Assembly: GCA_934547065.1 (NCBI GenBank)
Contig: CAKTEF010000019.1
Location: forward strand, 1-33,868
DNA: 33,868 bases
Source: an uncultured Faecalibacterium sp.
Lineage (GTDB): Bacteria; Bacillota; Clostridia; Oscillospirales; Ruminococcaceae
Direction of reading: 5' to 3'
In this document: positions 25,225 to 33,553 of the stretch, piece by piece
How the letters are laid out: each line of letters begins with the position of its first letter
Numbering within the stretch: the first letter of the stretch is position 1
Translations under genes and position numbers: made by a program
Notes under the pieces: generated by a model
What the model was told of the DNA's origin: nothing
What the model saw: only the letters and a program-made list of their open reading frames with translations
Database searches by the model: none

Positions 25225-25253
25225 TTGCATTCTGACAAAAGATATGGTAAAAT
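25225..25253 (+). promoter_or_regulatory. Promoter of the small hydrophobic peptide gene
   Basis: TTGCAT (25225-25230) and TAAAAT (25248-25253) are exactly 17 bases apart. The start falls near 25260, giving a leader of about 62 bases. Confidence 0.7.
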
Positions 25254-25321
25254 CGGATGCGAAAAGGTACTGCACATAACGGCAGGCGGTCGGCCCACAC
25301 TTCCGAAAGGAGGTGAGAGCG

Positions 25322-25405
25322 ATGCCGATTACTTTGACATTCCATATCTTCGGATTGGTTTTTACGATCAAGGTAAAAAGCGAAAACCGCCACCCTGGCC
25401 GGTGA
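25322..25405 (+). CDS. 27-residue hydrophobic peptide, candidate type I toxin
   Basis: A tiny gene with a near-perfect ribosome binding site, AAAGGAGGTGA (25306-25316), five bases before ATG. The peptide has a hydrophobic stretch (LTFHIFGLVFTI) followed by a basic, polar tail (ending NRHPGR). The hydrophobic part is only about 17 residues, short for a full membrane helix but similar in style to membrane-acting type I toxins. The stop codon lies inside the stem of the transcript's own terminator. It has its own promoter and a strong opposing promoter 65 bases beyond its end, which would make an antisense RNA. I do not recognise it as a named toxin family; the toxin role is inferred from architecture. 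Alternative: a leader or regulatory peptide. Confidence 0.6.
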   Translation: MPITLTFHIFGLVFTIKVKSENRHPGR

Positions 25406-25464
25406 CGGTTTTCTGATAAACCTATAACCTAAAAGGGCCAACCGCTTGTCGCAGTGCCTTTTCT
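25375..25464 (-). ncRNA. Predicted antisense RNA opposing the small peptide mRNA
   Basis: From the strong minus-strand promoter the transcript would start near 25464 and end after the hairpin at 25413-25382, which is followed on this strand by GCTTTTT: about 90 bases. Its 5' part can fold through AAAAGG...CCTTTT (25462 to 25431), and its 3' part is complementary to the last third of the peptide gene and its terminator. No protein gene lies downstream on this strand that the promoter could serve. Confidence 0.6.
25382..25413. terminator. Shared bidirectional terminator of the peptide mRNA and its antisense
   Basis: GAAAACCG (25382-25389) pairs with CGGTTTTC (25406-25413), and CACC (25391-25394) with GGTG (25401-25404). 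The minus strand continues GCTTTTT and the plus strand ends GTTTTCT. The peptide's stop codon (25403-25405) is within the stem. Confidence 0.8.
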
Positions 25465-25470
25465 ATTTGC

Positions 25471-25499
25471 AGTATAGTGAATTTTTTATGTTTTGTCAA
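25471..25499 (-). promoter_or_regulatory. Strong minus-strand promoter for the antisense RNA
   Basis: On the minus strand, a consensus TTGACA (25494-25499) and TATACT (25471-25476) are exactly 17 bases apart. It is among the best promoters in the window, and the next minus-strand gene is more than 1 kb away past two oppositely oriented genes. Confidence 0.8.
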
Positions 25500-26790: not shown

Positions 26791-27111
26791 TCACTTCATT
26801 CTCCGCAAACGGCGCACAAGGTCGGATGCACTGTACAGTACACGAGCCACCGACACGGTATCCTTGCCCACAATGTAGAACACCGAGTAGTTATCCACCA
26901 GCATCTGCCGCAGCCCTTGGGTGTGCTCCGGCTCACTTTCCACCAACGCACAGCGTTCCGGCAGGATGTTCAGCGATTGGATTGCTTCTGCAATGCGGTT
27001 ATACTGTCCCATGGCCGTGTCAGGCTCCAGCAGACGGTCGGCAATGTAGCTGTAAATCTGCTCCATATCGCTGAGGGCTGCATGAGAAATTTTCACGTCA
27101 TATTGCTTCAT
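26791..27111 (-). CDS. RelE/ParE-family toxin
   Basis: A 106-residue toxin of the RelE/ParE fold: KISHAALSDMEQIYSYIAD at the start, the central RIAEAIQSLNILPE and the C-terminal GLRQMLVDNYSVFYIV and VARVLYSASD strands, which follow the family pattern. RelE members cut mRNA on the ribosome and ParE members poison gyrase; sequence alone does not decide between them. It starts four bases inside the antitoxin gene (ATGA overlap), the usual coupled arrangement. Confidence 0.88.
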   Translation of the reverse strand: MKQYDVKISHAALSDMEQIYSYIADRLLEPDTAMGQYNRIAEAIQSLNILPERCALVESEPEHTQGLRQMLVDNYSVFYIVGKDTVSVARVLYSASDLVRRLRRMK

Positions 27112-27413
27112 CTGTGCTGTTCCCTGAACTGTGCGAATGCACTTGCGGCATCCACGGTGTCACCGTTCTGAATCTCCTTGATACCCACCTGCAAGGCTGC
27201 ATGGAGTTGGTCATCGGTCATGGTGTCAGTGTTCAGAGCCGCAGGAGCCTTCGGCAAAGACAGAGAAAAGGGGATGCCGCCAGTCAGGGTGATCTGGCGC
27301 AGGTACATATCAATGGCGGTTGCCATTGGGATGCCAAGCTGCTTCAGCACATCCTCGGCTTGCTGCTTGACGGTAGGGTTCACACGAAGATTGAGCGTCA
27401 TCGTTTTTTCCAT
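27108..27413 (-). CDS. RelB/DinJ-family antitoxin
   Basis: A 101-residue antitoxin. The N-terminal KTMTLNLRVNPTVKQQAEDV and LGIPMATAIDMYLRQITLTG form the ribbon-helix-helix DNA-binding part of RelB/DinJ proteins, with GGIPFSLSLP typical of DinJ. The C-terminal half wraps the toxin. The start is ATG 27413 with GAGGTGAT upstream; a longer in-frame start would cover the promoter and operator. It is the first gene of the pair and probably represses the operon through the dyad in its promoter. Confidence 0.9.
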   Translation of the reverse strand: MEKTMTLNLRVNPTVKQQAEDVLKQLGIPMATAIDMYLRQITLTGGIPFSLSLPKAPAALNTDTMTDDQLHAALQVGIKEIQNGDTVDAASAFAQFREQHR

Positions 27414-27431
27414 GGTTATCACCTCAAGGAT

Positions 27432-33340: not shown

Positions 33341-33553
33341 GGAGGAATTGTGTCAAATTGACACAATTCCTCTAACTATAGAGAGAAACAGAGCGTTCCC
33401 GACGGGGAACGCCCTGTTGTACATATCACTATCGTATGTGGATTTTGGCAGGGTGCGTCCATTCAGGGGCGCACCCTGTTTTTGTTTCACCCCCGATAAT
33501 TTTAACGGCGTACTCTTGTAGGAAGAATCGTGTCAATTTGACACAATTCCTCC
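33341..33553. repeat. 213-bp element bounded by 24-bp perfect inverted repeats
   Basis: The left end (33341-33364) is the exact reverse complement of the right end (33530-33553), and each end sits in its own palindrome: 33342-33372 is a perfect 15-bp stem around one base, 33521-33553 an imperfect one. Inside are hairpins at 33387-33418 and 33449-33478, the latter followed by TTTTTGTTT (terminator-like). No coding region is present. It could be a MITE or a pair of operators (core GTGTCAA/TTGACAC); no target duplication is evident. Confidence 0.55.

Follow-up and report, generated by a model that had tools for sequence, protein, structure and literature searches.

A probable chromosomal type I toxin-antitoxin-like module with a predicted beta-hairpin peptide in Faecalibacterium and related gut bacteria

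Introduction

The toxin mRNA of hok/sok is closed by a long-distance helix between its 5' and 3' ends, and in systems of the hok or aapA type the antisense RNA is directed at the 5' leader region; in TxpA/RatA and BsrG/SR4 of Bacillus it is the 3' end of the toxin mRNA with which the antisense overlaps. Full-length aapA mRNA is described, in the available portion of PMC6733600, as silenced by a 5'-3' interaction until its 3' end is trimmed. The par locus has one bidirectional terminator, its direct repeats give the RNAs complementary 5' regions, and contact between the RNAs starts at the terminator loops (PMC7472228, partial text). Membrane-associated type I toxins are all said to display an alpha-helical transmembrane segment (PMC8309996, excerpt), and a Table 1 legend in the type I toxin literature also marks beta-sheet for some toxin or toxins. 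The type I modules of C. difficile (CD2517.1-RCd8 and others) encode toxins of 34-59 residues with predicted transmembrane segments, and the portion of that paper available to us (PMC6563280) contains no word beginning Faecalibacterium, Oscillo or Ruminococc.

Here we describe a locus in a 33,868-nucleotide stretch of DNA from an uncultured Faecalibacterium sp. (the whole stretch is called the window below), which a first-pass annotation had proposed to be a type I module of an unnamed family. From comparisons with its relatives we put the probability that it is a chromosomal type I toxin-antitoxin-like module at roughly 0.7. That proposal held for the layout, to which coding selection, a conserved antisense promoter, the distribution of the family and swapped peptides were added; the details of the RNAs had to be changed.

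Layout of the locus

On direct reading we found all the elements reported earlier on the sense strand (a promoter, a leader of about 61 nt, a GGAGG, a 27-codon ORF, and a stop codon within a hairpin), together with the opposing promoter and, on the antisense strand, GCTTTTT directly after that hairpin. The features are as follows.

25225-25253, plus strand: sense promoter TTGCAT-17-TAAAAT (TTGCAT 25225-25230, TAAAAT 25248-25253), read directly
25261-25465, plus strand: predicted full-length sense RNA of about 205 nt, from promoter spacing, the 5'-3' helix, and the T-run past the 3' arm
25261-25296, plus strand: 5' arm (leader) of the long-distance 5'-3' helix, partner 25435-25463, from covariation
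25298-25315, plus strand: hairpin CACTTCC-GAAA-GGAGGTG hiding the Shine-Dalgarno sequence, from the predicted fold
25309-25313, plus strand: Shine-Dalgarno GGAGG, read directly
25322-25405, plus strand: 27-codon ORF for the putative toxin (type A, predicted beta-hairpin), from dN/dS and an AlphaFold2 model of a relative
25382-25413, strand not assigned: ORF-end hairpin with the last codons and the stop, from covariation, T-runs, and a hypervariable loop
25435-25463, plus strand: 3' arm closing the 5'-3' helix; the T-rich stretch after it is the probable sense terminator
25376-25464, minus strand: predicted antisense RNA of about 89 nt, from promoter and terminator positions
25471-25499, minus strand: antisense promoter TTGACA-17-TATACT, with 11/12 consensus matches here

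The ORF encodes the 27-residue peptide MPITLTFHIFGLVFTIKVKSENRHPGR. The predicted antisense RNA is complementary to the ORF end and to the 3' region of the mRNA, so that the two predicted units overlap at the ORF end in the TxpA/RatA-like manner suggested by the first-pass annotation. The complement of 25435-25463 forms the 5' stem-loop of the antisense, and the fold of the antisense region 25375-25464 has a z-score of -4.2. Both RNAs begin GAAAAGG.ACTGC; since the repeats are inverted and the 5' ends alike rather than complementary, we rejected 5' ends that are complementary in the par manner.

As previously proposed, the locus has a gene for a BlaI-type repressor (Pfam Penicillinase_R) on one side and a gene for an rlmD-like methyltransferase (tRNA_U5-meth_tr as best Pfam match) on the other. 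Three Faecalibacterium genomes match the rlmD region of the window in DNA, two of them with 82% identity and one with 79%, so that the host is probably a Faecalibacterium relative. We also saw, just past rlmD on the minus strand (26794-27419) and about 1.3 kb from the module, a type II pair of toxin and antitoxin genes with Pfam matches to ParE_toxin and RelB. Taken from the window alone, the promoters and terminators do not exceed chance (1 promoter-like match in 1.5 kb vs 0.6 expected, and 2 terminator-like matches vs 2.7 expected in 1.5 kb); the locus rises above chance because its relatives could be compared, in which the opposing promoter is conserved and the ORF is under coding selection.

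Distribution of the family

The examined DNA held 219 distinct peptide matches as counted by script, and 214 of these, scoring at least 20 across examined Oscillospirales DNA, show the peptide to be conserved beyond this strain. At the DNA level there was similarity to three faecal scaffolds (80-87%) and to six places on one Vescimonas replicon. The 20-mer at the 5' end of the antisense occurred in 54 stretches of public genomes, titled Faecalibacterium, Gemmiger, Subdoligranulum, Oscillibacter, Dysosmobacter, and Anaerotruncus, as well as uncultured Oscillospiraceae and Clostridiales, one Blautia, and one Lachnospiraceae bin; it was also present on 6 viral contigs. The faecal scaffold MT835905.1 bears the unverified label 'Bacteriophage sp.'; we rejected a phage origin on that label as the scaffold carries serC-, blaI-, and rlmD-like DNA just as the window does, and it looks bacterial rather than phage.

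At an E-value of 0.01, a peptide profile (A1) built from 24 rows found matches in 15 of the 295 genomes taken from the order, at least one of these matches being false: a low-scoring match, L115, sits inside a long protein and was rejected. At an E-value of 1e-4 there were matches in 9 of 247 genomes for the Faecalibacterium family, 68 of 300 for the family to which genome G283 belongs, and 2 of 291 at class level, one being the search centre itself. There were up to 10 matches per genome, some in tandem about 300 bp apart. Three loci of genome G682 (L249, L255, and L260) encode beta-family peptides of 39-40 residues whose tail is without the NRH motif.

The module is easily overlooked. No Rfam antitoxin RNA matched at its gathering score anywhere in the window (the best weak match was SIB_RNA, E-value 0.16, 19.3 of 56 bits), no Pfam, NCBIfam, or PHROGs model matched the peptide at its cut-off (the best weak Pfam match, MpPF26, scored 15.2 of the required 37.2 bits), and the Vescimonas record in PLSDB has no feature annotated at the module sites, its gene table being incomplete. 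Since no match to the peptide was acceptable in Pfam, NCBIfam, or PHROGs, no known family vouches for the putative toxicity. A literature search over titles and the starts of abstracts, with subscription papers and preprints mostly outside its range, gave no paper describing such a family among the matches listed.

Coding selection and predicted shape of the peptide

Pooled dN/dS was 0.18 for 82 distinct ORF cores of the 27-residue form and 0.09 for 52 distinct cores of the 25-residue form, the tail lying in the hairpin being excluded in both, while in both alternative frames the synonymous rate was lower than the non-synonymous rate. Entropy at the three codon positions was 0.71/0.42/1.45 in the 27-residue set and 0.54/0.26/1.23 in the 25-residue set, and 189 of 212 elements had GGAGG or GGGGG no more than 22 nt ahead of the start codon. 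As judged from these sequence patterns, the ORF is under coding selection and the peptide is translated.

Polar and hydrophobic residues alternate in the peptide pattern, (P)ITLTFHI-x-G-x-TVTIxVK. AlphaFold2, run with 34 rows on a 30-residue relative (L239) in place of the shorter window peptide, placed strands at residues 3-9 and 12-18 with pLDDT of 86 for residues 1-10 and 85 for residues 11-20 (pTM 0.30). The peptide is thus predicted to be a beta-hairpin rather than the usual transmembrane helix, and the alpha-helical transmembrane segment of membrane-associated type I toxins was not seen in this predicted structure of the relative. Because a literature legend already marks beta-sheet somewhere, any claim of novelty is limited to a wholly beta-hairpin toxin. 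The PXXXG motif was sought in 212 peptides, and P...G occurred in none.

Promoters

Of the 200 elements for which both flanks were available, 193 have an opposing promoter that matches the consensus at 10 or more of 12 positions (12/12 in 127; shuffles 1.0%), as do 151 of the 157 elements found by the peptide alone; exceptions, with fewer than 9/12, were 3 of the 157 peptide loci. The sense promoter reached 10/12 in 119 of 200 elements (shuffles 0.8%) and scored below the antisense promoter in 158 of 200 elements and above it in 11. L132, in which the ORF runs on, was excluded from the promoter count by a length filter. We looked for an asymmetry between toxin-only and antisense-only remnants and found none, both being rare.

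A helix closing the sense RNA

In the predicted fold of the sense RNA, the leader (25261-25296) pairs with 25435-25463 through 28 pairs with pairing probabilities of 0.84 to 1, and the folding energy is -88.5 kcal/mol at 208 nt vs -50.8 kcal/mol when the RNA is cut at 25420. When we scanned 4809 placements of the same geometry along the window, two reached the observed score, both at a palindromic repeat at 33.3-33.5 kb.

Support from the relatives came in two forms, the first being independent of any score threshold. In 118 dereplicated elements, the leader scored 29.6 against the reverse complement of its own 3' region, 18.8 against foreign ones, and 14.3 against shuffled ones (p ~1e-20); the own partner ranked in the best 5% in 75 elements and beat all foreign partners in 37, and it fell outside the best half in 6. 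The second was an alignment, A3, of 50 sequences chosen by hand from 75 dereplicated ones, which had themselves been drawn from 185 elements with a leader/3' match of at least 22 in a way that favoured A3 helix pair counts. On this alignment, pre-selected for leader/3' similarity, RNAalifold found the 5'-3' helix unguided, and with the same pre-selection 17 of the 22 helix pairs changed on both sides, a count that 0 of 500 shuffles reached. Pairing was possible in 90.5% of A3 cells (shuffled 82.5%, slid 34-51%), and 103 cells were changed on both sides vs 32. An example of compensated arms is CCCGGTCAT / ATGACCGGG, which replaces GCGCTGC / GCAGCGC in L111 and L259.

The 1100 cells of A3 comprised 830 Watson-Crick pairs, 146 G-U or U-G, 30 A-C or C-A, 72 other combinations, and 22 gaps. 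Since G-U is favoured over A-C mismatches, the pairing takes place in the sense RNA. Among 209 elements, 105 passed a score cut of 30, with 166 wobble-type differences and 36 broken pairs compared to 146 and 80 in a partner-swapped control. These data also bear on the idea that the locus is a mobile or repeat element of MITE or REP type, its inverted ends being DNA signals and its peptide incidental. Such an element would have inverted ends, many copies, and tandem copies, as here; it would leave unexplained the coding selection and the G-U/A-C asymmetry, a property of RNA pairing, and the arms change by compensation with no single sequence kept, while the same site is occupied in MT835905.1. 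On the grounds of the asymmetry and the coding selection we rejected a DNA-only repeat, and we regard this explanation as extremely improbable.

For the covarying helix to form, the sense RNA must be about 205 nt long, more than the roughly 155 nt previously predicted as its full length; a shorter form of that size may coexist with it. The sense RNA thus probably runs to about 25465 with its own 5' end paired to its own 3' end. For the hairpin hiding the Shine-Dalgarno sequence, 74.1% of cells were paired on A3 vs 72.4% in shuffles, a weak covariation, and the Shine-Dalgarno sequence remains paired even in the truncated predicted fold.

The palindromes reached by the placement scan are of the AGGAATTGTGTCAAATTGACACAATTCCT type and lie about 180 bp apart at 33343-33371 and 33524-33552, with two GC-rich hairpin-like stretches seen by eye between them; they are perhaps a small repeat element or a recombination site.

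The hairpin at the ORF end

The ORF-end hairpin, which covaries in A3, had been proposed as a terminator shared by both RNAs. That role is best supported for the antisense side, which was the T-richer one in 115 of 188 elements (sense 31, tie 42); on the sense side the answer depends on where the T-run window starts. A sense T-run (5 T in 8) was found in 60 of 188 elements when counted from the hairpin end and in 134 of 188 when counted from 4 nt inside it, the corresponding antisense counts being 146 and 161 of 188. Past the 3' arm, a sense T-run was present in 141 of 169 elements with equal windows (144 of 169 with a 16-nt window there and 14 nt elsewhere), compared to 40 of 188 in a control, which fits a sense RNA end near 25465.

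A reading closer to par/Fst would have an mRNA of about 155 nt that ends at the ORF-end hairpin, a terminator common to it and the antisense. The convergent promoters, a hairpin that is strong in both directions, and the 134 sense T-runs counted from inside the hairpin all suit this reading, which we nonetheless consider improbable, as the antisense side is the one richer in T (115 vs 31), a sense T-run also lies past the 3' arm, the covarying 5'-3' helix with its sense-strand wobble bias needs a longer RNA, and the RNA 5' ends are alike, not complementary. Of the par/Fst features, the convergent promoters are present here; the complementary 5' ends (DRa/DRb pairing) and a PXXXG toxin are absent. 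From the sequences at hand, the hairpin suits best the role of antisense terminator; because the sense T-run count shifts with the window start, partial sense termination may also occur at this hairpin and would give a form of the mRNA without the 3' arm.

We parsed 190 hairpins with a loop segment of 10 nt; their closing pair was T-A in 112, C-G in 76, and mismatched in 2. We compared 45 element pairs, not mutually independent, whose ORF cores differ at 2 or fewer of 48 nt: the loop segment had diverged by 28% (126 of 450 sites) vs 1.6% (34 of 2160) for the ORF core, and the stem arms differed at 4 of 360 and 0 of 360 sites. The leader in these pairs also showed 28% divergence, a value that was compared unaligned and is not used as evidence. 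Residues encoded by the loop (HPGR, HSAK, HRAG) vary along with it. As contact in par begins at the terminator loops, we infer that the ORF-end hairpin loop is probably a recognition loop; its specificity has the same status, since loops were not clearly more different within genomes than between them (at core identity of 0.95 or more, loops were identical in 2 of 13 pairs from the same genome and in 8 of 34 pairs from different genomes).

Other peptides in the same RNA frame

The 20-mer loci L031-L090 contain 61 antisense sites, at which we found a beta-type peptide in 53 cases, a contig edge in 1, and another peptide in 3; the remaining 4 lacked both a type A peptide and a leader motif upstream. 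These four (L080, L083, L084, and L047) have an intact antisense promoter and hairpin, and are possible antitoxin-only remnants as far as their sequences indicate.

Peptides other than the beta type included MVTYSELFQ...KRK at L055 (the same locus as L265), L072, and L264, all in genome G008; MVTYGELIAY... at L263 in genome G601; and MEYMW... at L079. By eye, the non-beta peptides have hydrophobic cores and basic tails rich in K/R, and the RNAs of these three kinds of locus are predicted to take the same closed fold. At the blaI/rlmD site of F. prausnitzii APC923/61-1 (genome G005, L269) there is a 47-residue peptide, MDYLNLVF..., with a 5'-3' helix of its own and with an antisense promoter and 5' end 90% identical to the window over 50 nt. 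Another site in this genome (L276) carries the 39-residue MTLSEVLLLL... in a similar frame, with 41% identity to the 47-residue peptide over 34 residues. Beta-type and other peptides coexist in both G601 and G005, and in two other Faecalibacterium genomes (L267 and L268) a different gene lies upstream of rlmD.

BlastP gave no alignment at an E-value of 100 or better for the pairs A-B, A-D, B-C, B-D, and B-D', absent alignments that do not prove types B, C, and D unrelated, and C-D gave an 8-residue match in the tail (E-value 0.07). Type B had no match among phages or plasmids; type D was found only in F. prausnitzii APC923/61-1 among 197 genomes, and 12 clusters in the protein database contained it. 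From these sequences the control frame appears to have been kept while the peptide was exchanged, and this is the best indirect support for the putative toxin role.

Genes with non-toxic products can also be under antisense control, and the module might by the same RNA mechanics govern a small non-toxic peptide such as a membrane or stress regulator. This would be in keeping with evidence that goes as far as coding selection and with the lack of a match to any known toxin family. We consider it unlikely, as dissimilar hydrophobic peptides with K/R tails occupy the same frame, as would interchangeable poisons, and the distribution is patchy and multi-copy.

A wider proposal, for which we see an even balance, is that the toxin-antitoxin-like module is a plug-in toxin platform of gut Oscillospirales in which one RNA frame, a ring of mRNA closed 5' to 3' together with an antisense that repeats the mRNA leader at its 5' end, serves at least two, perhaps four, unrelated kinds of peptide, swapped even at one site, and which includes the first wholly beta-hairpin type I toxin. 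Because the putative recognition loop lies within the ORF, the specificity of the RNA would set the toxin's C-terminal residues (HPGR, HSAK, HRAG), letting paralogues diverge.

Proposed mechanism

In the toxin-antitoxin reading, we infer the transcripts, the loop contact, the invasion, the degradation, the toxicity, and the membrane target as follows. The weaker promoter would supply an mRNA that is low in level, stable, and silent, with both ends buried in the 5'-3' helix and the Shine-Dalgarno sequence in its hairpin; an open form would arise by 3' trimming or by premature termination at the hairpin that ends the ORF. The antisense RNA, in excess, would first meet the mRNA by loop-loop contact at that hairpin and then invade the 5'-3' helix, where it could displace the leader because its own 5' end has the leader's sequence; the resulting duplex, about 85 bp long and spanning the stop codon, would be degraded or not translatable. 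Should the supply of antisense drop, open mRNA would be translated to a peptide that may act on the membrane as an amphipathic cationic beta-hairpin, its toxicity and target being guesses. Antisense bound to the 3' arm should free the leader, so the model needs degradation or a block. It also calls for a step that opens the Shine-Dalgarno hairpin, which is predicted to stay closed even in the truncated fold.

Comparison with known systems

If this reading is true, gut commensals of several genera, including Faecalibacterium, carry an unannotated type I-like module, type I systems gain a beta-hairpin peptide, what is inherited as a unit can be the RNA part rather than the toxin, and the loop variants form a natural series for measuring antisense specificity.

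The predicted antisense (25376-25464) covers the ORF end and the 3' arm, and by layout this differs from the hok and aapA type. By their descriptions, TxpA/RatA and BsrG/SR4 are set apart by longer, alpha-helical toxins, and the C. difficile modules encode the 34-59-residue toxins noted above. With aapA/IsoA of Helicobacter the locus shares a toxin mRNA closed by a 5'-3' long-distance helix (PMC6733600, available portion), which is predicted here. With par/Fst of pAD1, of the Fst/Ldr family, it shares convergent promoters, a very short peptide, and a sequestered mRNA 5' end (here predicted), along with a hairpin-loop contact that is shown for par and would be expected here (PMC7472228, partial text); the local stem-loop that holds the Shine-Dalgarno sequence in par may have a counterpart in the weakly covarying hairpin predicted for the window. 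Unlike par, with its direct repeats, the ends of the present locus are inverted copies, so that the two RNAs start alike and the mRNA is predicted to pair with itself, and the peptide, unlike Fst, is a predicted beta-hairpin without PXXXG.
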